64,000 nucleotides of DNA from positions 248,001 through 312,000 of the forward strand of contig DASYHQ010000018.1 of NCBI GenBank assembly GCA_035998445.1. The letters are read 5' to 3'. The notes beneath the pieces are model-generated. The model made no database searches. It was not told the DNA's origin and saw only the letters and a program-made list of their open reading frames with translations. The translations under genes were made by a program, and so were the position numbers. Of the stretch, positions 5,534-32,668 are shown piece after piece. The stretch comes from Tepidisphaeraceae bacterium (GTDB lineage: Bacteria > Planctomycetota > Phycisphaerae > Tepidisphaerales > Tepidisphaeraceae). Every line of letters starts with the position of its first letter. The stretch's first letter is position 1.

Positions 5534-5577
5534 CATGACACGCTGGGGGTCACAGGTTCGAGCCCTGTACCGCCCAT
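5534..5577 (+). other. att core: 3' half of tRNA-Val(GAC), left copy
   Basis: It begins at tRNA position 31 and runs through anticodon loop ATGACAC (anticodon GAC, U33 and A37 equivalents present), stem GCTGG, variable loop, T arm ACAGG-TTCGAGC-CCTGT, acceptor strand ACCGCCC and discriminator A. No 5' half (expected to start GGGCGGT) precedes it, so it is not a working tRNA gene. It is identical to 34782-34825. It serves as both the right end of element A and the left end of prophage B. Confidence 0.88.
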
Positions 5578-5694: not shown

Positions 5695-6999
5695 ATGCCG
5701 AAGCTATCCCCCGGAAAAGTCCCGAAGTACCGACTGCATAAGCAATCGGGCCGCGGCATCGTCACGATCCACGGCAAAGACAAGCTCCTGCCCGGCAAGT
5801 ACGGGTCACCGGAGAGCCGCAGGGAGTGGGCGCGCCTCACCACCGAATGGCTTGCCAGAGAGGGAATGCCGCCCGCCCCGGAAAACGGAAGAACGGAATC
5901 GGAACCCCTGACCGTCGCCCGCCTGGTGGTGCAATTCTGGCGACACGCCAAAACCTACTACCGCGGCACGAACGGCGGGATCAGCCACGAGGCATATCAT
6001 TACCGCGACGCCCTGCGCCCGGTTGTGCGGTTGTACGGGGCTACGCCTGCCAACAATTTCCAAGGGCCAGCGCTGGAGGCTGTGCAACGCGAGATGATCC
6101 GGCTCGGTTGGTGCCGAAACTACGTCAACCGCCAAGTCAGCCGGGTGCGGCACGTCTTCACATGGGCGCTGGCCAAAGGGGTAGTAAACGCCGACGTAGT
6201 GGTCGCACTGCGGGCGGTCACCGGACTGAAGAAGGGCCGCAGCGGAGCGCGTGAGTCGGGTAAGGTGAAACCGGTGGCCGATGCCCATATCGCGGCCGTG
6301 CTGTCTCACCTGTCGCCAACGGTTCGCGCGATGGTGGAGTTGCAGTCCATCACCGGCATGAGGCCCGGCGAGCTGTGCGACTTGCGCGGGGTGGATCTGG
6401 ACATGAGCCGCACGCCTTGGACCTACCGCCCCAGCACCCATAAGACCGCGTATATGGATAAAGACCGGAGCATCGACCTAGGCCCGCGTGCCCGGGCGAT
6501 AATCGAGCCGTTCCTACGGGCTGACGTGAATGCCCACATCTTCAACCCTGCCGACGCTGCTGCGGAAGGCCGGCGACGCCGCGGTGAGACGCGCAAGACG
6601 CCAGCAAGCTGCGGGAACGCCCCCGGCACCAACCGCAAGCGCCGCCCAAAACGACGGCCCGGTCATCGGTTCGACGTCCATGCCTACCGCCGGGCCATCG
6701 CCCGCGCCTGTGAGACTGCTTTCCCCTTACCGTCGACCCTGGGGCCGCGCTCTGGTGAAAGTCGCCTAGCATGGCGAGAACGGCTAACGCCAGCTGAGCA
6801 GGCCGCGGTGAAGGCGTGGCGCAGGGAGCATCATTTCCACCCGCACCGGTTGCGACATTCGGCAGCGACCCGCTGGCGAGCCGATCATGGGCCGGATGCC
6901 GCGCTCGTGCTGCTGGGTGATTCAAGCACGAGGATGATTGACGTTTATGCAGAGAAAGATCGGCGGCTGTCGTCGTCGATCATGGAAAAGATCGGTTAG
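5695..6999 (+). CDS. int: tyrosine recombinase, prophage integrase
   Basis: 434 residues. An N-terminal arm-binding part and SAM-like core-binding domain (about 70-175) precede a catalytic domain with Arg223 (ITGMRPGE), Lys250 (THKTAYMDK), the HxxR box His384/Arg387 (HPHRLRH) and nucleophile Tyr418 (MIDVYAEKD). The usual LGH is LGD (Asp409). A basic insertion of about 90 residues (290-380) separates the two halves of the catalytic domain, larger than usual. It lies 118 bp right of the att core, so it is probably the enzyme that joined prophage B to tRNA-Val. Start ATG at 5695. Confidence 0.93.
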   Translation: MPKLSPGKVPKYRLHKQSGRGIVTIHGKDKLLPGKYGSPESRREWARLTTEWLAREGMPPAPENGRTESEPLTVARLVVQFWRHAKTYYRGTNGGISHEAYHYRDALRPVVRLYGATPANNFQGPALEAVQREMIRLGWCRNYVNRQVSRVRHVFTWALAKGVVNADVVVALRAVTGLKKGRSGARESGKVKPVADAHIAAVLSHLSPTVRAMVELQSITGMRPGELCDLRGVDLDMSRTPWTYRPSTHKTAYMDKDRSIDLGPRARAIIEPFLRADVNAHIFNPADAAAEGRRRRGETRKTPASCGNAPGTNRKRRPKRRPGHRFDVHAYRRAIARACETAFPLPSTLGPRSGESRLAWRERLTPAEQAAVKAWRREHHFHPHRLRHSAATRWRADHGPDAALVLLGDSSTRMIDVYAEKDRRLSSSIMEKIG

Positions 7000-8060: not shown

Positions 8061-8366
8061 ATGACCGATTCATTCCTGAACGAGCCAGCCATCACTTTGG
8101 CAGAGGCAACGCGACTGCCCCAACTCGCACGCAACGGCCGCCGTCCAAACCCTTCCACGATATTTCGCTGGGCATCCTGCGGGGTCCGGGGCGTCAAGCT
8201 TGAGATTCGCCAGGTGGGCGGCAGTAAGTGCACGAGCCGCGAAGCCGTCACGCGATTCATCGCCCGCCTGAGCGGTGACGAGGGTGCCCCCGTCGCTCGC
8301 ATCAATCCACCCGCAGGCACCGGTGGCGGCGCGGTCGAACTGGAGCTTCAGGCGGCTGGGTTCTAG
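8061..8366 (+). CDS. DUF1580-like protein, possible excisionase or regulator
   Basis: 101 residues. ITLAEATRLPQLARNGRR, STIFRWASCGVRGVKLEIR and GGSKCTSREAVTRFIARLSG match the DUF1580-like pattern of planctomycete proteins: an HTH in which the recognition helix STIFRW is followed by a strand and a wing. It is related to the element A protein at 2190-2507 (shared RGVxLE and TSxEAxxRF). Its location near the integrase fits a recombination directionality factor, but that is inference. The ATG at 8061 is preceded by GAGAGGCGAA. Confidence 0.72.
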   Translation: MTDSFLNEPAITLAEATRLPQLARNGRRPNPSTIFRWASCGVRGVKLEIRQVGGSKCTSREAVTRFIARLSGDEGAPVARINPPAGTGGGAVELELQAAGF

Positions 8367-8462: not shown

Positions 8463-9920
8463 ATGCATTCTAGCAGTCGCACGCCATCACTGCCAACCAC
8501 AAAACGCCGCAGCCGTCCCGCAAGGAACGCTGTAGCTAGCGTGCTCGTGTCGTCGCTCAAGCCGTCCGCAACCAACGACTCCCTATACCGCCCGATCGAC
8601 ACCGACGACGCCAACTTTAAGAAGCTGGTGCGCAGCGTCCTGAAGCGCGGACGTGTCATGCAGCCGCTACTGGCGACGCGCGACGGAATCCTAATCAGCG
8701 GTCACCGAAGGCTAGCCGCGGCAAAGGTCGCACAGCTTGTCGCGGTGCCGTGCCAGTTCACGGAAAGGGACCGCCAAGATTATAGCGATGCCGAATTTCT
8801 TGAGCTGATCCGTGAGCACAACCTGCAAAGGGAAAAGACGCTCGCGGAGCAGCACAACGAGGCGCTGGTAGACGTCGCCCGCGAAGGCACCGCCTACGCC
8901 GACCTGCTGGCCGATCGTCAGGAGAAACTAGACAAGTCTGGTTTCTCTTTAATGACGTTCGACATCGTTGGCGAAAAGGTCCGTTCCGAGATATCAAAGG
9001 CGCTTCACCCGTTCCTAATTGCGTGCATGCGTGTCATCGACCAGAACCGCGATTTCTGGCCCCTAAGCGTCCGCCAGATTCACTATCGCCTGCTGGGTGA
9101 GAACGCCCCGCTAAAGCACGCGAGCAAGCCCGGATCGACGTATGTGAACGATCGCAAGTCTTACCAGGCGCTCAGCGACCTGCTGACGCGCGGCCGCCTC
9201 GTTGGTCGAATCCCTTGGCACACCATCAGTGATGAGACACGCGACTTTGAGGGCTGGCCAGTCCATCAGGCAATCGGACCCTACATCACGTCTCAAATGG
9301 ATCGGTTGTTCACCACCTACTGGCGTGACCGCCTGCAAAGTCAGCCGCATCACGTCGAAGTCATCGGTGAGAAAAATACGGTTAAGACGATCGTGAGTTC
9401 CGTTTGCCGTGAATACACCGTGCCCTACTCGATCGGCCGCGGCTACTGCAGCATCCCGCCACGCTACGAGATGGCCCAACGCTTCCGACGAAGCGGCAAA
9501 GACCGCCTAATCGTGCTGATCCTCAGCGACTTGGACCCGGACGGTTCGGAAATCGCGCAGAGCTTCGCCCGGTCGATGCGCGACGACTTCAACATCGCAA
9601 ACATTGAACCGATAAAGGTGGCGCTGACGCCCGAGCAGATCGACCAGTACGACCTGCCGCCGAAGATGGTGGCCAAACCAACGTCTAGCAACTACGCCAA
9701 GTTCGTCGCGGCTCACGGGCAACACGTATTCGAGCTTGAGGCTCTGGAGGCGTCGCAGTTGCAGGACGTATTGCGCGATGCAATCAACCGGGTGCTCGAT
9801 ATTGATCTTTACAACCGCGAAGTCGAAGCCGAGGCCAGAGACGCGGATTACCTGAAGGCATGCCGGCTAACGCTCATCAAGGCCGCGCAGCAGATGGGAA
9901 TACGCGGCCTGTCAGCATGA
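8463..9920 (+). CDS. fusion of ParB-like domain with Topo VIA/Spo11-like (Mini-A type) DNA-cleaving domain
   Basis: 485 residues. The N-terminal part (about 30-130) is ParB/sulfiredoxin-like: FKKLVRSVLKRGRVMQPLL, then ILISGHRRLAAAK (76-88, the GxRR box). Residues about 175-430 look like a Topo VI A subunit: the winged-helix motif LSVRQIHYRLL puts Tyr208 at the catalytic tyrosine (RDIYY in Spo11/Topo VIA). A TOPRIM fold follows with Glu303 (VEVIGEKNT) and the acidic pair in DLDPDG (356-361). No Topo VIB/GHKL ATPase is nearby, as in the Mini-A proteins described from mobile elements. It probably makes DNA breaks, perhaps at sites chosen by the ParB-like part. Start codon not backed by a clear Shine-Dalgarno site. 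Confidence 0.8.
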   Translation: MHSSSRTPSLPTTKRRSRPARNAVASVLVSSLKPSATNDSLYRPIDTDDANFKKLVRSVLKRGRVMQPLLATRDGILISGHRRLAAAKVAQLVAVPCQFTERDRQDYSDAEFLELIREHNLQREKTLAEQHNEALVDVAREGTAYADLLADRQEKLDKSGFSLMTFDIVGEKVRSEISKALHPFLIACMRVIDQNRDFWPLSVRQIHYRLLGENAPLKHASKPGSTYVNDRKSYQALSDLLTRGRLVGRIPWHTISDETRDFEGWPVHQAIGPYITSQMDRLFTTYWRDRLQSQPHHVEVIGEKNTVKTIVSSVCREYTVPYSIGRGYCSIPPRYEMAQRFRRSGKDRLIVLILSDLDPDGSEIAQSFARSMRDDFNIANIEPIKVALTPEQIDQYDLPPKMVAKPTSSNYAKFVAAHGQHVFELEALEASQLQDVLRDAINRVLDIDLYNREVEAEARDADYLKACRLTLIKAAQQMGIRGLSA

Positions 9921-10840
9921 GCTTCCCGCCCCCGCTGGCGAATAGCTGGCGCGAGGCGGTTTAACAAGCACCTTCGGTCGCCCGCCTGACACGCGGCCGA
10001 GGGGATCACAAAAGTACCTGCGGGTACGAGGTTGATGGCTTAGCCTGTTCGCGAAAAGCCAGATGTGAGGCGTAGCCGGTCGAACCGGGCATGACGTTAC
10101 AGACATCGGGAGCTAACCCCTACCCGGTGCCGGTGGCTGCTATGTGAATCCCCTCAATCGTCGGCTGTGCCCGTGGTGGCGTCGGACGGTCAGGGATTGG
10201 TTCACATGACCACCGCGCTCGACTCGACCGAAGCGGCCCGCCCTCGTCAGCGGCGAAATGGTGAAAGATCGAGGAACACACACGCGTACCGAGTTCCAGG
10301 CTCATACTGCACCGTCCCCTGTGTCAACGCACAGGGGTCACTCCGCAACCCGTTTCCTTCTCACCTGCTGTTTGGTGCTGACGGTGCTTAGTGCTGTCTT
10401 TCCTGTCTGAGCGTAGCGAGGTGGCCTGATGAGGGCACTGTACCCGGTGCCTGAAGATGGCCATGTATTGAGCGCTTTATTGTACGATCAGAGAACTAAC
10501 AGCTAATCGAGCGCGTACTATTAGAGGGTGACCGTGCTGAACTGTGCTGATCTAGATCATGCGTCTGAAGCGATGATGCCAAGGGGGTGCGCACCTGCGC
10601 TACCTGCCAAAGTTATCCACAAAATCGGGCCGCCCGCGGCGCCGGAACCGCCACATTCACGCCCGCTTTCACCAAAAACCCCTGCTTTTCGGCCAAAAAG
10701 AGCCGGCGCCTGCCCTACCGACCGGTTCCGCAACCCATCTGCGGGCTGTCTGGTGCCGAGTGCATCGGGGAAGCAACCGGGAAGCGATGGGAAAGCACCT
10801 GAGAAGCAACCGAGAAGCACCCACCACACAGGAGCGACGA
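9921..10840. other. 0.9-kb non-coding stretch with DnaA box, repeats and hairpins; candidate origin or centromere
   Basis: I find no convincing gene on either strand in 920 bp. It holds one perfect DnaA box (10613-10621), a hairpin CCCCTGTG-TCAACG-CACAGGGG (10316-10337), GTGCTGA-type heptamers at 10375, 10384 and 10391 and again at 10534 and 10544 (9-10 bp spacing), and the palindrome GATCTAGATC (10549-10558). Placed just after the ParB-fusion gene, it may hold a replication origin or ParB-like target sites. Short frames here (such as 10167-10391) lack coding character. Confidence 0.45.
10613..10621 (+). promoter_or_regulatory. perfect DnaA box
   Basis: TTATCCACA is an exact consensus DnaA-binding nonamer inside the non-coding stretch after the ParB/Topo VIA-like gene. 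A single box can occur by chance, but few are expected at this GC content. Confidence 0.5.
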
Positions 10841-12157
10841 ATGGGTAACAACGGTCCTAATGTCAGAGAGACGAATCGAAAGTGGCTCACGCTGCCCGCG
10901 CGCATCGGTGCCCGCGATGCGGAAGAGATCGGGGCGAACCTTGCCACCATGGCCGACCCCGAGTGCCGCACACTCTACTCCGAGAGCGACCTGCTGCGGA
11001 TCGAGGACGAGCTGCCAGAGCTACAGGACCAGGTGCGATACGCCAGGATCATCCATCACGCGCGGGGCGTGAAGCCCGAGGCGCGACATTATCGCCGGGC
11101 CTGCACCTGCACCGATGCGATTCAGGCAGACTACGAGCCGTCGCACGGACCTTACCCGCTGATCATCCCGCCGATGGCGCACGTCGAATGCGACGCGCAC
11201 GGCCAGCCCTACTCGATCAATGGGATGCACGTCACCCAGCGGATCCACACGCCGCCGGCGGCGCTGGCCGATTGGGACCGGCGATACAACGAACTGGCCA
11301 AGGCCCGGAAGTCGACGCCACCGCGAGACGAGTATGAGTTCGTGCCGATCGTGCTGACCGACTACATCGACGAGCTGCCGGTGCACAGCGACCCCGAACC
11401 GCGGCCGGCGCGTGGCGTGGAGTGGCGCACGCCGTACGCTGCCACGCTGCCCCCGTCGCTCCGCAACATCCACCTGCGGTACGAGCCGACGTTCGCCGGA
11501 ATGACGGGCCAGCCGTTGCCGCAACCCGGCCGGCTGCGCATCTTCGACACCTACCGCGCCCAGTGGGAACGCGAGTGCGAACGCTTGGGAGTGGACGTCA
11601 CGCCCTATTGGTTCATCAAGGGACGCTGGCTGTTCAGTCTCGATACGACGCCAAGCGCCGTCTTCAATCGTCGTGGTCTCCGTCGTCAGCGCCGCCCACG
11701 GGGGCAGGCGATCCCGGCGAGCTGGTCGAGTTGGGAACCACCGCGCAGAGATCGCCCCGAATACCCGCACGGGCGAATGGACCTCAACGGCCTCTGGCGA
11801 ATCGACCGTAGGAAGGTCGCCTCCATTTTCCTACGCATCACGCGACCGCAGCACGAGTGCGCGACGCTCTACTTCCACGAGGGCTACACGATCGCCGAGG
11901 TGGCGCGTGCCAGGAACTGCGCGGTCAGCACCGTTCACGAACTGATCGAGCGAGTCCGAGAGGAATTCCGCAGGGAGGAACTGCCGGACCCGAAGCCCAA
12001 CTCGCTGTCCCCCACCGAATCGGGCTGGGAATCCGGTTACGTGCTGGTGAGTGCTCGCACCGCCTACGAGGATGAGGTGCGCCGCGGGTTCAAGCCGCCC
12101 CGCAAAGGTGCTGACGTGAATCCGTTCGCGCCCCGCGACAAAAATAAAATTGCGTAA
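10841..12157 (+). CDS. phage protein with C-terminal sigma-region-4-like HTH
   Basis: 438 residues from MGNNGPNVRE, with AGGAG upstream; longer forms reach back into non-coding DNA. The N-terminal 330 residues are unrecognised, rich in Pro, Arg and Tyr, with CTCTDAIQ (Cys pair) and HVECDAHG. Residues about 335-378 form a sigma-70 region 4/LuxR-like HTH: CATLYFHEGYTIAEVARARNCAVSTVHELIERV. It precedes the packaging and head genes, so a late-gene activator is a reasonable guess. The C-terminal tail is basic and Pro-rich. Confidence 0.7.
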   Translation: MGNNGPNVRETNRKWLTLPARIGARDAEEIGANLATMADPECRTLYSESDLLRIEDELPELQDQVRYARIIHHARGVKPEARHYRRACTCTDAIQADYEPSHGPYPLIIPPMAHVECDAHGQPYSINGMHVTQRIHTPPAALADWDRRYNELAKARKSTPPRDEYEFVPIVLTDYIDELPVHSDPEPRPARGVEWRTPYAATLPPSLRNIHLRYEPTFAGMTGQPLPQPGRLRIFDTYRAQWERECERLGVDVTPYWFIKGRWLFSLDTTPSAVFNRRGLRRQRRPRGQAIPASWSSWEPPRRDRPEYPHGRMDLNGLWRIDRRKVASIFLRITRPQHECATLYFHEGYTIAEVARARNCAVSTVHELIERVREEFRREELPDPKPNSLSPTESGWESGYVLVSARTAYEDEVRRGFKPPRKGADVNPFAPRDKNKIA

Positions 12158-12299: not shown

Positions 12300-12423
12300 T
12301 ACTTCCGGGGTGCCTTCCCCCCAGAATCCCGAAATCCCGAAATCTGAAACACCCACAACCCATCGCACGACGAAGCCCGACAGGGCTTTCTGTCGTTGCG
12401 CCACACACCCCGAAGGAGAACGA

Positions 12424-13020
12424 ATGCGAAAGCTAAGGCGAAAGAACGTGCCACCGGAGCGGCAACCGTACTTTGATGAGGCGATGAACTGTTACCGCGT
12501 CCCATTGACCAATGGTCGCACAGCGACAATCGACGCTGAAGACGTCGAACGGGTGTCGCAGTTCCTATGGCGATGGAGGCCGCACAAGTCGCTGGCCAAT
12601 GGGCAAGCGGAGCACCGCCTGTACGTGTCGCGCACCGAGTACACAAACGTGCGGCTGAGTCGATTCATCCTCGGTGTCAGTGACGACGTTCGGTTCATCA
12701 ACCACATCAACGACGACTCGCTCGACTACCGAAAAGCGAACCTGCGGACATTCACGCGAGAGGAGTCGTCCCGACACTTCAAGAAGATGAAGAAGAACCG
12801 CTTTGGTGACACGCCAAGCAGCCGCTTCAAGGGCGTTTCGCGGTTCCAAGACACTGGTAAATGGATCGCCCAAATCCGAAAGGACGGGGTGAACTATTAC
12901 CTTGGCCTATTCACAGACGAAGAGGCCGCGGCCCGAGCGTACGATGCCAGCGCGTTGGAGAAGTTCGGCCACGCGGCGCGCATCAACTTTGCCATCCCAC
13001 TGACCCAGGAGGCCGCATGA
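12424..13020 (+). CDS. HNH-type endonuclease with AP2 DNA-binding domain
   Basis: 198 residues from MRKLRRKNVPP, with AAGGAG upstream. The first 115 are an HNH homing-endonuclease-like module (VRLSRFILG, FINHINDDSLDYRKANLRTF; His in NHIN is the expected catalytic position). Residues about 135-190 are an AP2 domain (SSRFKGVSRFQDTGKWIAQI, then YYLGLFTDEEAAARAYDASA and INFA). AP2-HNH proteins are known from phages and plant-like homing endonucleases, where they cut DNA at specific sites. A second, related gene overlaps the stop. Confidence 0.85.
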   Translation: MRKLRRKNVPPERQPYFDEAMNCYRVPLTNGRTATIDAEDVERVSQFLWRWRPHKSLANGQAEHRLYVSRTEYTNVRLSRFILGVSDDVRFINHINDDSLDYRKANLRTFTREESSRHFKKMKKNRFGDTPSSRFKGVSRFQDTGKWIAQIRKDGVNYYLGLFTDEEAAARAYDASALEKFGHAARINFAIPLTQEAA

Positions 13021-13634
13021 ATCTGAGCTTGAACCTTGGCTATTGGACCGCCGAGTTGGACGACGCCGACGCCGGGATCATCTCAGGCTACGCGTGGCGA
13101 CGCACGCGATGCAACAAGAAGGGCCGGCCGCGCGTCGAAGCATTCCGATTAGATGGGACGCGCGTATACCTCGAACGCCTGTTGCTTGGATTGGTTGACG
13201 ACGGCCAATTCTACGTGAAGTTCCTGAACGGAAACCGACTGGATTTCCGCCGGGCAAACCTACAGGTGATGCACGTCGTCGATCACCTCGTGAGCCAGCC
13301 TAAGCTGCGATACCACGACCCCAACCGCCAGCCCACCAGCGAGTACAAGGGCGTGCATTGGGCCTCCACCAAATGCGATGGCCGCTGGTGCGCCAAGATC
13401 CGCTACGAGGGCACGCAACGGCTAATTGGGTGGTTCAAGGACGAGGTTAAAGCCGCTAAAGCGTACGACCGCCGCGCCGCCGAACTTTACGGCGCTGAAG
13501 CCTACTTGAACTTCCCCCAGGAGGTGCCCACCGCCAGGCGTCTAACCCCTACACATCCTCGCAACGTGACCAAAGTTTCACCCAAGGAACCATGGAACGA
13601 TATATCCGTCCGAAACGACGCGCCAAGCGTCTGA
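13017..13634 (+). CDS. second AP2-domain HNH-like protein, degenerate nuclease motif
   Basis: 205 residues; ATG overlaps the upstream stop by four bases. Same layout as the preceding protein: an N-terminal HNH-like part (RVYLERLLLGL, KFLNGNRLDFRRANLQV) and an AP2 domain (SEYKGVHWASTKCDGRWCAKI, then RLIGWFKDEVKAAKAYDRRA and LNFP). The HIN motif is replaced by KFLN, so the first catalytic His is missing and cleavage may be lost, leaving a DNA-binding protein. The extended C-terminus (about 175-205) is basic. Probably a duplication of the first gene. Confidence 0.8.
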   Translation: MNLSLNLGYWTAELDDADAGIISGYAWRRTRCNKKGRPRVEAFRLDGTRVYLERLLLGLVDDGQFYVKFLNGNRLDFRRANLQVMHVVDHLVSQPKLRYHDPNRQPTSEYKGVHWASTKCDGRWCAKIRYEGTQRLIGWFKDEVKAAKAYDRRAAELYGAEAYLNFPQEVPTARRLTPTHPRNVTKVSPKEPWNDISVRNDAPSV

Positions 13635-15174: not shown

Positions 15175-15897
15175 ATGCCCGACCCCTTCGCCAACATCCC
15201 GACGCTCGACGCCGCCGACCTGACCGACATCTGCGAGATCGACGGCTTGGGCGAGCCGTTCGACGACGCGCCGGACTTCGACCCCGAGTTAAACCCGGAG
15301 GTCGACGCCACGGCCCGGCTGGACGACGCGCACCTGCACATGCAGACGCCGAGGCGCAGGCTGTTCATCGACTACCGCCCCGACCCCGACGCGCTGCTGC
15401 ACCTGAAGACGTTGCCGACCGAGGGGCAGACGTTGCACGGCGTGATCTGCCAGAAGTACGCCGCATGGGATCTGGTGCCGGCGCTGATCGGTCGCACCGG
15501 TCGCAACATCGACGAGCTGTACATCGCCACGCTGAGCTACGGCGCGGGCAACGCCAAGGAACTGCTGGCGCTGCTGGACGAGGGCCGAATCAAGCGGTGC
15601 AGCCTGATCGTCAGCCACTATTTCAAAGCGCAGAACCGCCAACTTTATGACTCGCTCGTGCCGCCCCTGCTGGAACGTGGTCACCGTGTCATCGCGATGC
15701 GCAATCACAGCAAGCTGCTGTTGATGCAGACCGCGGGCGCTGGAAGTTTCGTGGTGGAAGGTTCGGCCAACCTTCGCAGTTGTAAGAACGTCGAGCAGTT
15801 CTGCCTGACCCGTTGCCGCCAGTTGTACCGCTTTCACCGCGGCTGGATCGAGCGGGAACTGTTCGCCCGTCGCGAGGAAGGGAAGACCAATGACTAA
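15175..15897 (+). CDS. PLD-superfamily (single HKD) protein
   Basis: 240 residues. After an acidic N-terminus (1-60), residues 61-235 hold a phospholipase-D-like domain: RNHSKLLLM supplies His178 and Lys180, and FVVEGSANLRS (192-202) the rest of an HxKx-GSxN motif. The canonical Asp of HxK(x4)D is not evident. A dimer would be needed for two HKD sites. Family members act as nucleases or phosphodiesterases; small ones occur in phage near packaging genes. It overlaps the terminase small subunit by eight bases, so it is coexpressed with packaging. Its precise role is not known. Confidence 0.75.
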   Translation: MPDPFANIPTLDAADLTDICEIDGLGEPFDDAPDFDPELNPEVDATARLDDAHLHMQTPRRRLFIDYRPDPDALLHLKTLPTEGQTLHGVICQKYAAWDLVPALIGRTGRNIDELYIATLSYGAGNAKELLALLDEGRIKRCSLIVSHYFKAQNRQLYDSLVPPLLERGHRVIAMRNHSKLLLMQTAGAGSFVVEGSANLRSCKNVEQFCLTRCRQLYRFHRGWIERELFARREEGKTND

Positions 15898-20465: not shown

Positions 20466-21689
20466 ATGGACACGAAGTCACTGCGCGAAGAGTTCAGCCG
20501 CCTCACCACCGAGGGGCAGACCCTTCTCGACACCCTCGCCACCGAGAACCGCGACAAGTCGGAGGCCGAAGAGACGGCCAGCGCCGCCCGCTTCTCGCGA
20601 TTGGAGAAGATCAAGAGCCTGCTGGACGAGCAGGCCAAGTTCGCCTCGCTCAAGCTGGCCGACGACGCTGGCGACGGCGACGCCAACGTGGTGCTGCCGA
20701 AGGAAGACCCCGGCCGCGACGCGTTCAACGCGTCCGAGGGCAAGGGCGCGAATGGCACCGCGGCAGAACCGAAGGTCGACCGCCAGCAGTTCAACCGTGC
20801 GTTGAACCACTGGGCATTGACCGGCGATATGGCCCGCCAATTCGCTACTATCACCACCGCCACCCAGTCGGGCGCGTTGCTGCCCAAGATGGTGGCGCAG
20901 CCCGTCGTCGTCACCTACCCGACGGCGTTCCGCCAGGCCATGGCGCTGTATGGCGTTCAGCCGGTCAGCGGGTCGAGCACGGCCGAGATGAACCTGCCCG
21001 TGGTGATCGCCGCCGTTGGCAGCGACCTGTCGGAGACGGCCACCAGCGGCACGCAGAACGAGCCGTCGCTGACCGAGACGATCAACCTCAAGCCGGCACC
21101 CATCCAGTCGGGCCAGGCGTGGGTATCGAATCTGGAACTGGCCGCGCTCGATTACGACCTGCTGGGGTCGCTCGTGCCGTCGCTGATCGACGCGAAGGAA
21201 ATGCGCCTCGAACAGAAGGCCATGGCCGCGATCATCGCCGACACTGGCATTACCCAGAGCGAGGCAACGGCCACGATCTCGGGCCTGACCTACGACAACC
21301 TCGTGGACCTGAACAACAAGCTGGCCACCCGCTGGGACCGCCAGAAGGTCATCATCCTTTCGCCCGCCGCCTACACCGCGGCCTGCAAGCTGACGGGCGA
21401 CGACGGCCACCCGGTGCTGCTGAAAGACCCGCAGAACCAGACGCTGGTGCGCCTGAACGGCACGCCGGTGCTGAAGTCCGATTACCTCGAAGCGTTCGGC
21501 GCCAACAAGGTCGTCGGCATCCTCGTGAGCCTCGTGGGCTTCCGCCTGCGCGACGCAGGCACCCAGAAGATCGTGCGCCACCTCGACGACAAGGACAAGG
21601 TCGACCAGACCGGCCTGAACGTCATCGGCTACCACGCGTGGGGGTACGCCCCGAGCGCGATGGTCAAGCTGAAGTGCCCCGCCTCGTAG
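20466..21689 (+). CDS. HK97-family major capsid protein
   Basis: 407 residues from MDTKSLREEF. Residues 1-70 are a coiled scaffolding (delta) domain (TLLDTLATENRDKSEAEETA). Residues about 125-407 hold the HK97 fold: FATITTATQSGALLPKMVAQ, a long beta region around LPVVIAAVGSDLSETATSGT, and RLEQKAMAAIIADTG. Cleavage after the delta domain is expected near residue 115. A longer in-frame extension from 19794 belongs to another frame of the protease gene. A hairpin follows at 21714. Confidence 0.92.
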   Translation: MDTKSLREEFSRLTTEGQTLLDTLATENRDKSEAEETASAARFSRLEKIKSLLDEQAKFASLKLADDAGDGDANVVLPKEDPGRDAFNASEGKGANGTAAEPKVDRQQFNRALNHWALTGDMARQFATITTATQSGALLPKMVAQPVVVTYPTAFRQAMALYGVQPVSGSSTAEMNLPVVIAAVGSDLSETATSGTQNEPSLTETINLKPAPIQSGQAWVSNLELAALDYDLLGSLVPSLIDAKEMRLEQKAMAAIIADTGITQSEATATISGLTYDNLVDLNNKLATRWDRQKVIILSPAAYTAACKLTGDDGHPVLLKDPQNQTLVRLNGTPVLKSDYLEAFGANKVVGILVSLVGFRLRDAGTQKIVRHLDDKDKVDQTGLNVIGYHAWGYAPSAMVKLKCPAS

Positions 21690-21713
21690 TCTCCTGTTTG
21701 GGGTTGTGTGGGA

Positions 21714-21741
21714 CCGTGGGCGGGTTAACGCCCGTCCACGG
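21714..21741 (+). terminator. stem-loop after the capsid gene
   Basis: CCGTGG-GCGGG-TTAA-CGCCCGTCCACGG forms a stem with one G-T pair. No T-run follows, so it is more likely an mRNA-stabilising or partial terminator structure, which would raise the level of the upstream capsid message relative to the tail genes. Confidence 0.5.
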
Positions 21742-21763
21742 CATTTCAACAGGAGAACCGGAA

Positions 21764-22030
21764 ATGAAGATCACGTTTCAGCAGACATTTTCGACCGAAC
21801 GCCAGCTATTCCGTGGCGGCAAAGAGTACGACGTGACCGACGCCCAGGGCGCGGAGTTCGTCGCCAGCGGCATCGCCAATCGCACGGATGGCAGCACGCC
21901 ACCGCCCGCGGAACCGGAGCCGATCGCCGCGGGCGCTGACCTGACCCGGAACGATGGCGACACGGCCACGGCCGTCACCGAGCCCCCGAAGCCGAAGCGC
22001 AAGGGCCGCGCCCGGAAGGGCGACGCCTAA
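21764..22030 (+). CDS. small hypothetical head protein
   Basis: 88 residues from MKITFQQTFS, AGGAGAA upstream. A folded N-terminal half (ERQLFRGGKEYDVTDAQGAEFVASG) looks like a small phage head protein; the tail is Pro/Lys-rich (PPKPKRKGRARKGDA). It lies between the capsid and head-connector genes, where decoration or connector-associated proteins often lie. No family recognised with confidence. Confidence 0.65.
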   Translation: MKITFQQTFSTERQLFRGGKEYDVTDAQGAEFVASGIANRTDGSTPPPAEPEPIAAGADLTRNDGDTATAVTEPPKPKRKGRARKGDA

Positions 22031-22653
22031 TGGTCACCTACGGCCCCAGCTTCGCGCAAGAGTTCCTGTGTCGTGCGCCCGACGTCACCACGGGGCTCTA
22101 CCTCATCGTTCACCGCAACGACGGGCTGGCGTTCGACGTGACGCAGCACACTTGGATGGATTGCACCCCGGAGAATTGGGGGCAGTTCACCGAAGGTTTT
22201 GTTGCCAAGGGTAGCGGGATCTACCGATGCGTGATTCAGCACGACACGCTGACGGCCGGCGAGCACTACATCTTCTCGGTTTACGAGATGCTGGGTGAGC
22301 AGCCCGCCAGCACCGACCGCCTGCGCGAGACGTTGCACAAGGCCAACTGGGGCGTGATCGCGCCCGACGCCATGGTGGGCGACCCGATCGACCACAACAC
22401 GGGCAGCACCGATGCGCTGCGCGTCGTCGACACCGGCGGCAACGGCATCGACGGCGTGGTGATCCGCGCCTACCTCGCGACCGACTACACCGACAACGCC
22501 AGCGCCGCCAGGGTGCAGGGGCTTTCCGTCACGCTGGCCGATGGCCGGTGGGAACGTCCGATCTACCGCGACCCGTCGCTGGCCTACACGCTCACGATGC
22601 ACGCCGCGGGCAAGCTGGTGGGCCTGCATGACCTACCTGCGGAGGGAACCTAA
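22030..22653 (+). CDS. hypothetical phage head/tail protein
   Basis: 207 residues, translationally coupled to the preceding gene. Beta-rich throughout (TGLYLIVHRNDGLAFDV, SGIYRCVIQHDTLTAGEHYIF, GVVIRAYLATDY, YTLTMHAAGKLVG), resembling a two-domain Ig-like fold. It lies before the head-tail connector, so it may be a capsid decoration or neck protein. No family recognised. Confidence 0.6.
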   Translation: MVTYGPSFAQEFLCRAPDVTTGLYLIVHRNDGLAFDVTQHTWMDCTPENWGQFTEGFVAKGSGIYRCVIQHDTLTAGEHYIFSVYEMLGEQPASTDRLRETLHKANWGVIAPDAMVGDPIDHNTGSTDALRVVDTGGNGIDGVVIRAYLATDYTDNASAARVQGLSVTLADGRWERPIYRDPSLAYTLTMHAAGKLVGLHDLPAEGT

Positions 22654-23252
22654 TGCCGATCGTGCTCGACCCCATCCAGAGCGGCGACGTGCCGGAGGGC
22701 GCGAATGGTCGCCATACGAAGTGGAGCGTGACCACCCCGCCCACGACCACGCCCGTATCCGCGGGTGATGCTGGCTACTACCTGAACCTGAACGAGGGCG
22801 GCGTAGATGAGACGTTCCCGCTTGAGTTGATGGTCGCCGCGGCCGTCGAGCACGCCGAGGACGTCATGGGAACGTCGCTCATGCCGCGCACGATGCTGGC
22901 GACGTTCTACAACGGCGCACCGCTGCTGCTGCCCCGCGGCCCGCTGCTGGAAATGATCGGCGTCGCGGACGGCAACGAGAACGCCGTGACCGATTACAAG
23001 GTCGAGCACGTCGGCCGGCGGCGCACCTACATCGTGCCCGCCGCCGGACTCACCTACCCGGTCAGCATCACGTATCGGGCGGGCTACGCAAACGCCGCAG
23101 CGGTGCCTGCCGACATCAAGCTGGCCATCCTCGCGCACGTCGGCACGCTCTACGAGAACCGCGAGAGCGTCAGCGACAAGCCCAAGACGCCCGTCCCGCA
23201 CAGCCTGGAAGCGTTCTACCGCCGCAAGGGTAGGAATGTGGGGATCGGATGA
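22653..23252 (+). CDS. head-tail connector (gp6/phiE125 gp8-like)
   Basis: 199 residues from MPIVLDPIQS, GGAGGG upstream. Helices (FPLELMVAAAVEHAEDVMGTSL) and beta stretch (MLATFYNGAPLLLPRGPLLEMI, YPVSITYRAGY) end with ADIKLAILAHVGTLYENRESV, the pattern of adaptor proteins that link portal to tail. Coupled to the preceding gene. Fits the standard order after the capsid. Confidence 0.78.
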   Translation: MPIVLDPIQSGDVPEGANGRHTKWSVTTPPTTTPVSAGDAGYYLNLNEGGVDETFPLELMVAAAVEHAEDVMGTSLMPRTMLATFYNGAPLLLPRGPLLEMIGVADGNENAVTDYKVEHVGRRRTYIVPAAGLTYPVSITYRAGYANAAAVPADIKLAILAHVGTLYENRESVSDKPKTPVPHSLEAFYRRKGRNVGIG

Positions 23253-23584
23253 ACGCGGGGTCGCTGCGCCACACGCTCACGCTTCAGCGCCCGGTATCGG
23301 TCACCGACGCTTACGGCGAAACCACGGCGACGTCGTGGGTGGACGTCATGCCCATCCGTGCCGCCCTCAAGCCCACGCGTTCGGCCGAGAACCTGCGCGC
23401 GAGGCTGAAGGGACTCGAAACCAGCTTTGAACTGACGATGCGGTACAGCGCCGAGGTCACGTCGGAGCGCCGATTCCTTTGGGAAGGGAAGGAGCTCTAC
23501 ATCGACGGCATCATCGACGTGGACGGCCGACACCGCGAGATGCGCGTCACCACCTTTAGCCGCGTCGAGGTGCCCGGTGGCTAA
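23249..23584 (+). CDS. phage head closure protein (SPP1 gp16-like)
   Basis: 111 residues. SLRHTLTLQRPVSVTDAYGETTATSWVDVMPIRAALKP and ELTMRYSAEVTSERRFLWEGKELYIDGIID match head-closure or stopper proteins: beta-barrel, short, with the characteristic LRHxxxLQR start. It seals the portal after packaging. It overlaps its neighbours on both sides by 4-8 bases. Confidence 0.82.
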   Translation: MNAGSLRHTLTLQRPVSVTDAYGETTATSWVDVMPIRAALKPTRSAENLRARLKGLETSFELTMRYSAEVTSERRFLWEGKELYIDGIIDVDGRHREMRVTTFSRVEVPGG

Positions 23585-24014
23585 GAGTCCGCAGATCAAA
23601 ATGAAGGGCGACAAGGCGCTGATCAAGAAGCTGAAGCGCCTGGGCGACAAGCGGAAGATGCGCAGGGTGCTGCGGGCCGCGACCAATGCATCGGCGCAGG
23701 AGATCGTGAAGGCCGTGCGCAAGCTATGGCCAACCGATTCGGGCCTGAGCAAGAAGAGCGTCATCAAGAAGATCCTGAAGACCAAGAGCGGCTACACCGC
23801 CATCATCGGCATCGACAAGGACGCGGGCGTGCCCGGGCACATTCCGAGCAACATCGACCACCTGATCGAGCTTGGCTGGCAGACGAAGGACGGCGTGTCG
23901 GTGCCCGCCATCGCGCCGCTACGCCGCGGCTACGACAGCGCCAAGGCCGCGGCTGAAGCGAAGTTTGCGAGCAAGGCCAAAGAGGCAATCGAGCGAGAGG
24001 CACGGAAACCCTGA
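23577..24014 (+). CDS. HK97 gp10-family tail completion protein
   Basis: 145 residues from GTG at 23577. IKMKGDKALIKKLKRLGDK, VLRAATNASAQEIVKAVRKLWPTDSG and GHIPSNIDHLIELGWQTKDG resemble HK97 gp10-like proteins, which are basic and lie between head closure and tail terminator genes. A poly-Ala/Lys C-terminus follows. It connects head closure and the tail terminator. Overlaps both neighbours. Confidence 0.8.
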   Translation: MAKSPQIKMKGDKALIKKLKRLGDKRKMRRVLRAATNASAQEIVKAVRKLWPTDSGLSKKSVIKKILKTKSGYTAIIGIDKDAGVPGHIPSNIDHLIELGWQTKDGVSVPAIAPLRRGYDSAKAAAEAKFASKAKEAIEREARKP

Positions 24015-24415
24015 TGGACGTGGAAACCGCAATCGTCGCCCACCTTCGCGCCGTGCCGCTGATCGAATCGCTTTCGGGCGGTCGCGTGGTCCCCGCGGGC
24101 AGCAGCAGCGTGCTGCGTCCCAACATCGTCTACCAGCGATTGACGACCAAGCGCGAGTACAGCAACGACGGCCCGACGCACGCGCCGTGGGCAACGGTGC
24201 AGATCGGTTGCTGGGCCGACACGCTGAGCGTCGCGCGCCAACTGTCGGACGCAGTAATAGCCGCACTGGACGGATTCACGGGCGAGGTCAACGGCTTTCA
24301 GATCGACGCCGTTTTCATCACTGACGAAAACAGCGCCCCCGAGTCCGCAGCGCCGGGCAAGGAAGAGGGCATCAAGGGAATTCTGGTGGACTGTGTAGTT
24401 CACTATCAGGAATAG
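24014..24415 (+). CDS. tail terminator protein (DUF3168/gp17-like)
   Basis: 133 residues. MDVETAIVAHLRAVPLIESL, RPNIVYQRLTTKREYSNDGPTHAPW and VARQLSDAVIAALDGFTG are the usual features of DUF3168 tail terminators. It caps the finished tail tube. Its ATG overlaps the preceding stop; the tail-tube gene follows after 28 bp. Confidence 0.8.
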   Translation: MDVETAIVAHLRAVPLIESLSGGRVVPAGSSSVLRPNIVYQRLTTKREYSNDGPTHAPWATVQIGCWADTLSVARQLSDAVIAALDGFTGEVNGFQIDAVFITDENSAPESAAPGKEEGIKGILVDCVVHYQE

Positions 24416-24443
24416 CAGGCAGCACTTTTAGGAGCTTCACAGC

Positions 24444-24863
24444 ATGAGCACAGCAACGAAGGCATACGGGTCCAAGATCGCCGTCAGCGCCACTGACGCC
24501 AGTTACGTGGACATCGCGCAGACGGTCGACCTGGCCGGGCCGTCGCCGGAGGTGGGCGAGATCTCGATCACCAACAACGACAGCCCCGACAACTGCAAGG
24601 AATACTTGCCGGGCATGATCGAGCCGGGCGAACTGGAATTTGAGATCGTCTACGAGAAGGAGCAGTGCGCCGACCTCTACGCGATGTTCGGCGACGACAT
24701 CGTTTACTTCTGGCGCGAGACGTACCCCGACGGTTCGACGTGGAAGTTCAAGGGCTTCCTGAAGTCCTTCGGCACCGAGGGCGAGACGGAAGACGGCGCA
24801 CTGACCAACACGATCTCCATCAAGCTGACCAGCAAGCCGGTCTACACCGCGACGCCGGTCTAA
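24444..24863 (+). CDS. major tail tube protein
   Basis: 139 residues, AGGAG upstream. KIAVSATDASYVDIAQTVDLAG, EVGEISITNNDSPDNCKEYL, then GELEFEIVYEKEQCADLYAM and TISIKLTSKPVYT match the phage tail tube (TTP_1-type) family. It polymerises into the siphovirus tail. It precedes the chaperone and tape-measure genes, as expected. Confidence 0.85.
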   Translation: MSTATKAYGSKIAVSATDASYVDIAQTVDLAGPSPEVGEISITNNDSPDNCKEYLPGMIEPGELEFEIVYEKEQCADLYAMFGDDIVYFWRETYPDGSTWKFKGFLKSFGTEGETEDGALTNTISIKLTSKPVYTATPV

Positions 24864-24954
24864 CGAGCACCCAAACCGAGGGGGGAGCGTCGCCCAACGT
24901 GAAATGGCGCTCTCCCCCTCTTTTGTTCCACCACCCCACACAGAGGCACCGACC

Positions 24955-25170
24955 ATGAAGTTTGAACGAAACGCGTTCCTGCAATCGTTGACCGTCAAGC
25001 GCAAGACCTTCAAAGCGCCGAACGGGATGGAGTTCACCATCCGCCAGTTGAAGGCGGGCGAGGTGCAGCAGTTCATCACGTTCCAGAAGGACGCGAGCAA
25101 AGACCCGCTGTACCTGATGGCATGGTGTTCGTCCGCGCCGTGGTCGACCAGGACGGCAACCAGCCGATGA
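24955..25170 (+). CDS. tail assembly chaperone, N-terminal part (reading frame ends early)
   Basis: 71 residues from MKFERNAFLQ, GAGG upstream. FKAPNGMEFTIRQLKAGEVQQF is typical of the gpG-type tail chaperone N-terminus. From LYLMAW the frame should continue VFVRAVVDQDGNQ but instead reads CSSAPWSTRT and stops. The expected continuation lies in the -1 frame (25122-25310). A one-base loss in a G run (GGG to GG near 25126), a sequencing error or true mutation could explain it; a second frameshift is less likely. Confidence 0.7.
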   Translation: MKFERNAFLQSLTVKRKTFKAPNGMEFTIRQLKAGEVQQFITFQKDASKDPLYLMAWCSSAPWSTRTATSR

Positions 25171-25310
25171 ACGACGACGACATTCCCGCCATCGTCGAGG
25201 CCGCGTTCGACAATTGCGAGACGGTGTTGCAGCCGGTGACCGACGAGGCCGCGCGCTTCACGGGCATCGTGAAGACGGAGGCCCAAAAAAAGCGCGGCTC
25301 CGCGAACTGA
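25122..25310 (+). CDS. tail assembly chaperone, C-terminal part of gpG
   Basis: 62 residues in the -1 frame relative to 24955-25170: MVFVRAVVDQDGNQPMNDDD then IPAIVEAAFDNCETVLQPVT, the expected second half of a gpG-like chaperone. It has its own ATG inside the first part. It ends at TGA 25308-25310, shortly after the slippery heptamer at 25286-25292, through which a fraction of ribosomes should make the longer gpG-T product. Confidence 0.7.
   Translation: MVFVRAVVDQDGNQPMNDDDIPAIVEAAFDNCETVLQPVTDEAARFTGIVKTEAQKKRGSAN
25286..25292 (+). promoter_or_regulatory. programmed -1 frameshift slippery site A-AAA-AAG
   Basis: Zero-frame codons CAA-AAA-AAG place the heptamer A AAA AAG, the same as the E. 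coli dnaX slippery site, in the X-XXY-YYZ register. Slipping back one base yields AAA-AAA-GCG and enters the frame of 25286-25642. The sequence just after is GC-rich with a possible GCTC/GAGC hairpin (25297-25312). The site precedes the zero-frame stop by 16 bases, as in lambda gpG/gpGT. Confidence 0.85.
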
Positions 25311-25642
25311 GCGCCCCGCGGCAGAAGTTCGCGTTCATGCTGTGTCGCACGCTCGGATTCGCGCACCCCGACCACCTGCTTGCGACCCTCACGCACGAGC
25401 AGTTCGAGGATTGGATAGCCATCTACCCGCACGACCCGTGGGGCGAGGATCGCGACGACCTGCGGATGGCCCGCATGGTGTGGGCCACGTTCGCCGCGAT
25501 GGGCGGGAAGAAGACGAAGAAGCTGAAGGAGTCCGATTTCCTGTTCAGCTTCAAGACCGCGATGGACAAGCCGCAGACCCCTGAGCAGTACGCCGCCAAG
25601 GCGCGACGCCTGTACCTCGCGCAAGGCGGAAGGATCAAGTAA
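25286..25642 (+). CDS. tail assembly chaperone gpT-like part, made by -1 frameshift
   Basis: 118 residues in the -1 frame after the slippery site. LSAPRQKFAFMLCRTLGFAHPDHLLATLTH, QFEDWIAIYPHDPWGEDRDDLRMARMVWA and KLKESDFLF match gpT-like extensions: LCxxLGxxHPxxLLxxLxxxQxxxW, then PWGExRxDLR. No good start codon or Shine-Dalgarno site exists, so it is expressed as a gpG-T fusion that recruits tail tube protein to the tape measure. The tape-measure ATG follows its stop directly. Confidence 0.82.
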   Translation, partial: KKARLRELSAPRQKFAFMLCRTLGFAHPDHLLATLTHEQFEDWIAIYPHDPWGEDRDDLRMARMVWATFAAMGGKKTKKLKESDFLFSFKTAMDKPQTPEQYAAKARRLYLAQGGRIK

Positions 25643-27898
25643 ATGGCCAAGAACATCAGCAGCTTATGGGTGGGGTTGACCGGCAACGTGTCGGGCCTGT
25701 CCAAGTCGTTCGGCGGTGCCATCGGCACCATCAAGGGGCTCGCGGGCAGCGTCGCGGGCGCTGGCGGCAAGCTGCTGGCGCTGACCGGGATCGGCGCGGG
25801 CGTGGCCGGCGCGTTCGCGGCCGTCAAGGGCGCTGCGTCGGGCATCTCGCTGGCTGCGGATCTAGAGCAGACCGGGGTCGCGTTTGAGACGATGCTTGGC
25901 AGCGCCGACGCCGCGGGCGCGATGATGGAGCAGCTAAAGAGCTTCGCTGCCTCAACGCCATTCGAGTTCCCCGAGATCGCCAACGCCACCAAGTCACTGC
26001 TGAACGCCGGCGTGGGCGCGGGGGAGATGACCGATAAGCTGCGCATGCTGGGCGACATCTCCGCAGGCTCGGGCAAGCCGCTTAATGAGTTGGTCGCGAT
26101 ATTCGCAAAGATCAAGAATACGGGCCGATTGCAAGGCGACACGCTCGCGCAGCTGGCCGAGGGTGGCGTGCCGGTCTACAAGGCGCTCTCTAAGCAGATG
26201 GGCGTTTCAACCGAGTCGATCGGTCAGATGGTCAGCGAAGGCAAGGTGAGCTTCGCCGAACTGGAAACCGCGTTAGGCAGCCTCACGGCGGCCGGCGGCA
26301 TTTACGAGGGGATGACGCTAAAGCAGAGCCGGACGCTGGGCGGGCTCTGGTCGACGCTCACCGACACCATCGGCATGAGCATGGCCGATCTGGTGATGAT
26401 CGTCGTGGACGCGTTCTCGCTTCGGGCAGGTATGACGGCGCTCACGGATGGGCTCGCGTGGGCAGGGGCCGCCGTGGGCGGATGGGTGAAGGGCATCGCG
26501 CCGATCGTCAAGGCGTTCGCCGTCAGCGCCTACCAATCGTTCGTGGGGTTCTACCAAGCCGCGGTGCCGATCCTGGGCCGCGTTTACTCGTTCGTTTCCA
26601 GCATCTTCGGCCAGCTCGTGCCCGTGGTGACGGGCGTGGCGACGACGCTGTGGACCGTGGCAAGCACGACGTTCACGGCCATCTACAACACCGTTGCCCC
26701 GATCGTCCAGACCCTTTACACCACGGTGGCATCGCGGTGGCAGGGTCTGCTTACGTCGACCATCACCTACGGGCTCGCCATCTGGGGCGCGGTGCAGTCG
26801 GCGTTCGGCCTCGTGCTCGACGTCGCCAACGTGATGTGGAACGGCGTGGTGAGCGTGTGGAACTGGGGCGCGTCGTGGATCACCGGTTCCAGCACGAGCG
26901 CCGCGTCAACGGTCAGCGGTGTGTTCGCAGGCGTGGCCGACGTCTTCGGCTGGGTGCAGGAGAAGGTGACCGCCGCGTTGAATATCGCGTCGTTCGCGGT
27001 CGACAACTGGCGCGACGTGTTCGCGCTGGCGGGCACCAACGTGCTGTGGACCGTCGTCAGCCTGGGCAACCAGATCGCCCACGTCTTCACCGAGGTCATC
27101 CCGTCGATCCTGACGTGGTTCGGCGACAACTGGAAGACGATCCTGCTGGACAACTTCAACTACGCCAAGGCGTTCTTCACGAACATCGCCAGCAATGCGG
27201 TGGCCATCCTGACGAACATCCCCGGCCTCATCAGCGGGCAAATGTCGTTCGCGGACCTGTGGACGCCGCTGGGGGAGGGGTTCAAGTCCCAGCTTTCCGA
27301 GATGCCGAAGATCGCCGAACGCGAGATCGGCGGGCTTGAGGCCACGCTTGCCGCTTCCAGCGCGTCGTTGGCCAACTCCCTCGTGACGGGCTACGACGCG
27401 AAGATCGCCGAGCAGAAGGCCGCTGCGGACGCCGCGAGCAAGGCGATTACCGATGGGGTCACCAACGCGTTCAAGCCGCCGGAGAAGATCGACCCGCCCG
27501 CCGTTGGCGAGGTGAAACCGCCGGAGCTGCCCACGATCGGGCTCGACGCGAAGGTGAACCAAGACAACCTCACCGTGGGCATCACGCCGGAACTGAAGCT
27601 ATCCAAGATGGTGATGGCGGGCAGCGCCGAGTCGCAGGCCATGCGGTTCCTGTCCCCGGACATCGCCGCGGCACTGAAGGGACCGGCCACGCCAGTCGCG
27701 GGCGCGGCCGGCAGCACCACCGCCCCCATTGCGATGGACGGTCCGAAGCAGCCGACCGTCGAGCAGTCGGCGGGCATGAAGCAGACCACCGACGATTTCG
27801 CGCGGCTGCAACTGGCCGAGCTGACCAAGCAGTCGTCGCTGCTGAAGTCGATCGACGACAGCCTGGCGAGCACTGACAACCTCACAATTGATTTCTAA
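25643..27898 (+). CDS. phage tail tape measure protein
   Basis: 751 residues. After an Ala/Gly-rich hydrophobic start (about 30-75), the TMP_2-type region is clear: ADLEQTGVAFETMLGSADAA, EFPEIANATKSLLNAGV, GDISAGSGKPLNELVAIF and LAEGGVPVYKALSKQMGV. Residues about 260-530 hold several hydrophobic stretches, expected for membrane entry. The C-terminus has coiled and Pro-rich parts. It sets tail length; 751 residues implies a tail of about 110 nm if the usual 0.15 nm per residue holds. Confidence 0.93.
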   Translation: MAKNISSLWVGLTGNVSGLSKSFGGAIGTIKGLAGSVAGAGGKLLALTGIGAGVAGAFAAVKGAASGISLAADLEQTGVAFETMLGSADAAGAMMEQLKSFAASTPFEFPEIANATKSLLNAGVGAGEMTDKLRMLGDISAGSGKPLNELVAIFAKIKNTGRLQGDTLAQLAEGGVPVYKALSKQMGVSTESIGQMVSEGKVSFAELETALGSLTAAGGIYEGMTLKQSRTLGGLWSTLTDTIGMSMADLVMIVVDAFSLRAGMTALTDGLAWAGAAVGGWVKGIAPIVKAFAVSAYQSFVGFYQAAVPILGRVYSFVSSIFGQLVPVVTGVATTLWTVASTTFTAIYNTVAPIVQTLYTTVASRWQGLLTSTITYGLAIWGAVQSAFGLVLDVANVMWNGVVSVWNWGASWITGSSTSAASTVSGVFAGVADVFGWVQEKVTAALNIASFAVDNWRDVFALAGTNVLWTVVSLGNQIAHVFTEVIPSILTWFGDNWKTILLDNFNYAKAFFTNIASNAVAILTNIPGLISGQMSFADLWTPLGEGFKSQLSEMPKIAEREIGGLEATLAASSASLANSLVTGYDAKIAEQKAAADAASKAITDGVTNAFKPPEKIDPPAVGEVKPPELPTIGLDAKVNQDNLTVGITPELKLSKMVMAGSAESQAMRFLSPDIAAALKGPATPVAGAAGSTTAPIAMDGPKQPTVEQSAGMKQTTDDFARLQLAELTKQSSLLKSIDDSLASTDNLTIDF

Positions 27899-27910
27899 GG
27901 AGCGCCGCCG

Positions 27911-28810: not shown

Positions 28811-28828
28811 AAGCAAGCGAGGACCGAC

Positions 28829-32068: not shown

Positions 32069-32134
32069 TCGCGATGTCCACAGCCCGCCGCTAGGGCCAC
32101 AGGACGCAAAACGGCGAACGATTCGCCCCACCGC

Positions 32135-32542: not shown

Positions 32543-32577
32543 AGGGGAGAATCTACCTCACCCGCCCCGCCAATGCG

Positions 32578-32644: not shown

Positions 32645-32668
32645 CAACTACCGATAGGAGCATCAGAC

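Follow-up and report, generated by a model that had tools for sequence, protein, structure and literature searches.

Tandem Prophages and the Gene-Free Stretch

The window, i.e., the whole 64,000-nt stretch of DNA that was analysed, is part of contig 18 of a 5.8-Mb genome. A 44-nt direct repeat was found at three sites, namely in a tRNA-Val gene 20.8 kb to the left of the window, at 5534–5577 and at 34782–34825. The three sites delimit two tandem prophages of ~26 and ~29 kb, and each of them has its own integrase. The pair, located at one tRNA-Val gene, spans window coordinates −20770 to 34825 (G000:C18:227230-282825). The right prophage, whose left neighbour is called the sister below, holds the gene-free stretch that is the subject of this work:

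5577–34825, no strand: prophage holding the gene-free stretch, 29.2 kb, with the integrase at 5695–6999 and att repeats at 5534–5577 and 34782–34825
8061–8366, + strand: DUF1580 gene, with a homologue in the sister prophage (34% identical, E 9e-8)
8463–9920, + strand: fusion gene encoding a ParB N-terminal domain (about residues 22–125) and a Topo VI A/Spo11-like part of the Mini-A type
9921–10840, no strand: gene-free stretch of 920 nt, from the fusion gene to the sigma-like gene
10841–12157, + strand: sigma-factor-like gene (weak family match), with the C-terminal part common with the sister (30%, E 8e-5)

The late genes of the tandem prophages are homologous while their early modules are unlike. 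Between the sister and the right prophage, identities of 41% for the integrase, 48% for the portal, 58% for the terminase, 59% for the protease, 49–62% for the connectors and 41% for parts of the tape measure were obtained; two unnamed late genes are 55 and 72% identical, and the region of the major head gene 53%. Family searches identified the terminase, portal, protease, connectors and tape measure. At 12310–13634, two overlapping candidate genes both match one and the same gene of the sister; the first is of the HNH-endonuclease type with a weak AP2 match, and the pair is possibly a duplicated homing-type endonuclease. The gene at 15175–15897, which has a near-equal place in both prophages and is 50% identical between them, matches PHROG families of unknown function and endonuclease, and by eye it is phospholipase-D-type nuclease-like.

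Position 9920 is the last of the fusion gene; a good start codon follows only at 10841, preceded by AGGAG at a distance of 6 nt. The gap contains 11 ORFs of at least 40 aa, not counting an upstream extension of the next gene. A codon test which took in nine of the 11 (46–106 aa) together with the extension (10760–10840) gave a third-position GC of 0.55–0.68, compared with 0.73 and 0.80 in the flanking genes. The 920-nt stretch is non-coding, and by a simple ORF picker it is the longest gap of the prophage; the gene-free region claimed in the original prediction is thus real.

Searches of the region for tRNAs gave none, and an Rfam covariance search matched no family, weak matches to snoRNA, miRNA and BjrC68 being far under their cut-offs. 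The stretch had no match among phage and plasmid records. A DNA search with the region returned two of 298 class genomes, its own and one (G032) with a 35-nt match, which looks like chance and by eye lies inside a polymerase-like coding sequence. This search is insensitive, since genome G151, described below, went unreported by it.

The ParB/Mini-A Fusion Protein

The fusion protein was modelled with pLDDT 75 and pTM 0.55, and fold comparison was employed for both of its parts. Modelled residues 23–125 gave Z 12.9 to 7bnr over 93 residues. Pfam ParB_N was recognised, with E values of 0.01 or lower, in nine of the ten proteins aligned; the match of the window's own protein (17.4 bits) was under the curated cut-off. 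On this model the fusion protein carries a ParB N-terminal domain. A Pfam search of the fusion protein recognised no ParB-type DNA-reading domain.

The Toprim half was assigned by fold to about residues 261–446. Modelled residues 261–446 gave Z 10.4 to 9o0g (161 residues, rmsd 3.5) and 10.1 to 1d3y, against a background in which unrelated rows reach Z 8.8; Foldseek gave E 1e-3 for Topo VI. The topoisomerase part matched the PHROG topoisomerase family at E 1.2e-39, and annotated Mini-A plasmid records match the fusion protein at 27%. A ten-sequence profile compared with solved structures gave 11 hits, all ParB, Noc or sulfiredoxin, and did not find Topo VI.

In the ten-sequence alignment, Y208, a candidate tyrosine ahead of the Toprim half, as well as E299, E303, D356 and D358, are invariant (10/10). 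The four acidic positions correspond to the acidic Toprim residues, and Y208, judged from its motif, is the candidate for the catalytic tyrosine of a winged-helix domain. The Topo VI A fold alignments begin at residue 261, leaving Y208 outside. By fold, a Toprim domain of the Topo VI A type is present in the fusion protein, acidic residues included, and the invariance of these residues and of Y208 suggests that the cleavage site may be intact.

Relatives of the Fusion Gene and Their Downstream Regions

Near-full-length relatives of the fusion gene were found at 10 places in nine other genomes of the Phycisphaerae class sampled and also on viral contigs, and several of them adjoin primases. Downstream sequence was compared at 17 other loci, 11 in genomes and six viral, for some of which it comprises only a few hundred bases. 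One of these loci (L043) contains a stop and is related only in part, another (L039) has only 459 nt downstream, and in a third (L102) the gene end is uncertain.

Among the 14 other loci whose downstream neighbour was scanned, six have one of replication type: a helicase (L033), a weakly matching primase-like protein (L035), primase-polymerases (L036, L039 and L097) and an O-like protein (L098). For L097 and L101 the second downstream ORF was scanned and for L037 and L099 none. Apart from L038, no replication protein was found downstream at 10 of 16 loci, of which eight were scanned and two were not. A ParB-like gene lies downstream in L037, where it was read by eye, and in L100 and L101, where the family search identified a ParB-methyltransferase. 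The downstream gap of L041 is ~460 nt or less.

L038 alone among the 17 loci has a gene-free stretch, of 541 nt, in which two weak ORFs were picked. It belongs to Phycisphaerales bacterium RYN_430 (genome G151, contig C364), which falls in the family grouping of the window genome, and L053, on that contig, is identical to it. The fusion proteins of the window and L038 are only 43% identical and do not group as sisters in a tree that has weak support. Unrelated sequence in related phages, a finding which the original prediction had set against itself, is what 16 of the 17 downstream regions have; L038 departs from this.

A second contig of G151 (C901) has terminase and portal genes 48 and 42% identical to those of the right prophage, and two neighbouring genes, the overall range being 42–55%. 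It breaks off before the early genes, at the contig end, and represents a third prophage of the same kind, in RYN_430. Because these genes are of the same kind of phage, L038 may lie within a similar prophage. In prophages of G055 and G139 with a related terminase, no fusion gene was found in the fetched stretches.

A Hairpin Conserved in the Left Half

The left half of the stretch contains the following features:

10069–10132, + strand: conserved core (CCGGxCGAA ... CAGAC, hairpin A, GCCG), common to L038 at a matching offset from the stop codon
10104–10129, + strand: hairpin A, with a 7-bp stem (CATCGGG/CCCGGTG) and the 12-nt loop AGCTAACCCCTA at 10111–10122
10131–10216, + strand: hairpin B, a long imperfect inverted repeat directly 3′ of hairpin A
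10316–10337, + strand: GC-rich hairpin of 9 bp (CCCCTGTGT/GCACAGGGG) with one G-T pair and no T-run
10380–10398, + strand: terminator-like hairpin followed by TTTCCTGTCT, a consensus match only

Among 11 downstream stretches, L038 was the sole match to the region at E<0.1 (33 nt, 82%, E 0.001). The match lies at offsets of 180 and 181 nt from the stop codons of the two fusion genes. Alignment of the core with L038 was reached by 0 of 300 shuffles, the segment having been chosen after the match was seen; the wider 420-nt stretch scored 138.5, also reached by 0 of 300 (shuffles 106.8, sd 9.2), compared with 45–114 at the 16 other loci. Of the flanks of the core, the 5′ part was equalled by 25 of 300 shuffles and the 3′ part by 172 of 300.

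Hairpin A, which had been missed in the original prediction, has the stem CGCGGGG/CCCCGCG in L038. Two of the base pairs differ in both bases and a third in one base only, with pairing kept throughout, and in the loop, A(G/C)CTAACCCCTA, 11 of 12 positions are identical. Folding predictions show the hairpin in both sequences, its pair probabilities being 0.70 or higher. Slid stems pair in 43–57% of cells, compared with 100% in register, and column shuffles equalled the covariation in 124 of 500, for two sequences and one helix with two double changes. At the place of hairpin B, L038 has a perfect 12-bp hairpin of unrelated sequence. A helix that would enclose both hairpins (10078–10229), noted by eye, is out of register between the two sequences and was dropped. 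A complement of the loop elsewhere was dropped as well, as there was one 6-nt match in the window (10333) and none in L038. Two terminator-like sites were found in the region, versus 1.1 expected.

Further copies of hairpin A were sought with motif scans and with a covariance model, R1, built from the window and L038 only. The motif scan of genome contigs gave four hits, one real (L053) and three without a full stem; scans of viral contigs gave four, zero and two hits, none with a full stem. The L038 stretch had no match in phages. With a limit of E 1, R1 had matches in 57 of the 397 genomes sampled from the class, and only the window and G151, which it finds because it was made from both, were above 31 bits. 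Nine of 28 fetched weak class loci were inspected and all nine overlap ORFs in a mechanical list; one of the nine (L063) by eye is a terminator after a thioredoxin-like gene. In samples that overlap one another, R1 matched two of 26 genomes of the order, none of the 51 and 35 genomes taken from two further families, and three of 392 in the phylum, namely the window and two weak matches judged from the alignment alone, G151 being absent among the matches listed. The exact-motif pattern was found in two of 26 genomes of the family. No R1 match above 18.5 bits was obtained in the sister or in further contigs with prophages. Altogether, hairpin A was seen with two of 18 fusion genes or partial relatives, i.e., the window and the 17 loci.

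Sequence Elements of the Right Half

The right half holds three elements:

10464–10523, no strand: AT-rich pocket, 60% AT compared with surroundings of ~60% GC
10613–10621, + strand: a single perfect DnaA box, TTATCCACA
10768–10819, + strand: tandem array of 4.7 copies of the 11-bp repeat GGGAAGCAACC

The perfect DnaA box of the original prediction was confirmed; it is the only perfect TTATCCACA in the 64 kb, where 0.10 are expected. The looser pattern TTWTNCACA occurs once in the window, as the box itself, versus 1.24 expected. With up to one mismatch there are three boxes including the perfect one, versus 4.3 expected, the others being kilobases away; no second box within two mismatches was found in the gap, which therefore holds no DnaA box cluster. 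The AT-rich pocket, ~90 nt from the box, ranks in the top five when separate 60-mers of the prophage are ordered by AT content.

The score of the 11-bp array, overlooked in the original prediction, was reached by five of 1000 shuffles. Its period corresponds to about one helical turn and the repeats end 21 nt ahead of the start codon at 10841. The GTGCTGA heptamers had been described as phased; three copies on the + strand (10375, 10534 and 10544) do exist, but only two of them are 10 bp apart. Three copies were reached by 0 of 1000 shuffles of the region and by 1.3% of all 920-nt segments across the 64 kb, those overlapping the region counted; the heptamer is over-represented across the whole window (22 versus 8.8). 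The GC skew has its maximum near 7926 on a broad plateau and does not single out the region. In the 541-nt stretch of L038, no tandem array was found at an equal threshold, nor a DnaA box within two mismatches, nor a comparable AT pocket, the AT-richest 60-mer being 48% AT.

The Replication Slot

The interval between the DUF1580 gene and the sigma-like gene was compared in the two prophages. In the sister it contains the following module:

436–2134, − strand: replication module of the sister, with an O-like initiator (1208–2134), a DnaC-like loader (436–1350) and iterons at ~1673–1823

The O-like initiator and the DnaC-like loader were recognised in the PHROGs family search at E 3.5e-24 and 5.1e-22, respectively, and small ORFs follow the loader. 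Within the O gene, six similar CAACCGGG-headed iterons (1673–1823, − strand) are followed by an A-rich run, an order also found in lambda; the iterons and the A-rich run make a good candidate origin of the left prophage. The iterons have the form CAACCGGGxCG... A 9-mer common to them and the 11-bp array was not significant, being matched by 39 of 411 control segments.

In the right prophage, the same interval holds the ParB/Mini-A fusion gene and the gene-free stretch. As the flanks are homologous and the contents unlike, the stretch occupies the slot of the replication module, and this slot is filled in two unlike ways. A PHROGs scan of 24 genes of the right prophage recognised no initiator of known kind and no O-like gene. 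A search with the sigma-like gene gave five of 397 genomes, all weak except its own, and nothing useful. The sister prophages constitute a natural swap experiment, in which a Mini-A-type fusion and the stretch replace a lambda-type module. The swap points to a replication role and yields a defined 0.9-kb DNA for testing.

Interpretation

The position in the slot, together with a hairpin common to one distant relative, suggests that the stretch is probably a replication-control region. With a probability of roughly 45%, we consider it to be a cis-acting replication or early-control region of a temperate phage, plausibly its origin. Counted in favour of this reading were the slot swap, the replication-type neighbours at six of 14 loci, the offset and pairing of hairpin A kept at 43% protein identity, the array, the AT pocket and the box. 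Counted against it were the lone box, the GC skew, the 10 of 16 loci with no replication protein found downstream, the non-sister position of the two fusion proteins that have the hairpin, and the 9-mer which the array and the sister's iterons share no more than by chance. The fusion protein and the stretch would jointly do the work of the sister's O, iterons and loader; host DnaA would act at the single box, the AT-rich pocket would be a possible opening site, and the 11-bp repeats would bind protein. The part that a protein or a second nucleic acid recognises would be hairpin A, whose loop is fixed, either as RNA or as extruded DNA. Because no initiator of known type was recognised, such an origin would need the host or the fusion protein, in a way not described before. 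The origin proposed in the original prediction thus gains from the slot position, the AT pocket, the DnaA box and the 11-bp repeats, and loses by the lack of the right-half features in L038.

Hairpin A fits more than one reading of the stretch. The left half could be a structured non-coding RNA of ~400 nt, or a structured 3′ UTR of the fusion gene, whose end would be near 10338 or 10398, with hairpin A as its functional loop. In its favour, pairing survives the changes in the stem, one of which (U-G/C-G) suits + strand RNA, both predicted folds have hairpin A with a second hairpin next to it, and a terminator-like hairpin lies at 10380. Nevertheless, only two sequences are at hand, the L038 stretch is without a terminator-like site, the alignment outside the core is not clearly above shuffles and the predicted helices differ between the two. 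The several hairpins first described are present, but folding energy is not under that of shuffles (z −0.30 for the whole region with 20 shuffles and +0.37 for the first 410 nt). What is left of the structured RNA first suggested is a small hairpin core kept in one relative, with neither an Rfam match nor excess folding; the large-RNA idea is weak, and we regard the RNA reading as somewhat unlikely. An ordinary long regulatory spacer, with promoters, operators, a leader of the sigma-like gene and a conserved hairpin that matters only modestly, or else DNA in partial decay, would agree with the position of the 11-bp repeats, which end 21 nt upstream of the start codon at 10841, as expected of an operator, and with the lack of conservation over most of the sequence. 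On the other side, the core was kept while the neighbouring proteins diverged to 43%, and no sigma-70-like promoters were found, though planctomycete promoters may differ; we regard a plain spacer as unlikely.

The fusion protein itself offers two further possibilities. The stretch, directly 3′ of the gene and with its repeats and inverted repeats, might be the specific loading or cleavage target of a protein that combines a clamp-type ParB domain with a part resembling Topo VI A. The centromere-like ParB target of the original prediction received no direct support: the classical chromosomal parS palindrome had no match with up to three mismatches in the 64 kb, other kinds of site being possible, and no such region is common to the other loci with a fusion gene. 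With hairpin A at only two of 18 such genes and no ParB-type DNA-reading domain recognised by Pfam, a specific target is distinctly unlikely. It is more improbable still, indeed a long shot, that the fusion is a new kind of initiator, whose ParB domain would load on the stretch and whose Spo11-like part would cleave or nick at or near hairpin A with 5′ linkage, the 3′-OH priming replication and the 12-nt loop being the cutting site. A replication or early-control region remains our preferred reading.

Comparison with Known Systems

In titles and abstract openings, a literature search did not find the arrangement of fusion gene and stretch named. The fusion protein resembles Mini-A, a type IIB-like group of proteins from mobile elements, in the fold of its Toprim half and in the invariant tyrosine and acidic residues. 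It differs by its junction to a ParB N-terminal domain and by loci which adjoin primases or a gene-free stretch. According to one review, Mini-A is mainly encoded by mobile elements, no archaeal member has been characterised, and three bacterial enzymes showed only faint activities (PMC8185306). MksG, related to Topo VI via its Toprim domain, is a nuclease (PMC10123090).

The long gene-free phage stretch with hairpins is reminiscent of large phage RNAs such as GOLLD and ROOL (PMC12286853); unlike these, it has no Rfam match, no excess folding and a conserved part of only ~64 nt. The nicking-initiator reading was likened to rolling-circle origins, with the fixed loop as the cutting site. Rolling-circle origins have a fixed loop on a variable stem, and in hairpin A the stem likewise varies with pairing kept while the loop is fixed. 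In contrast to rolling-circle systems, no rolling-circle Rep gene was recognised, and only two examples of the hairpin are at hand.

Iterons within an O-like gene, as in the lambda type, were found in the sister and not in the right prophage, where neither an O nor a loader gene was recognised and where the repeats are 11 bp long, lie in non-coding DNA and are only about 70% alike. Nevertheless, the slot between homologous genes is the same as that of the lambda-type module, which the sister has, and short repeats share a non-coding stretch with an AT-rich pocket.
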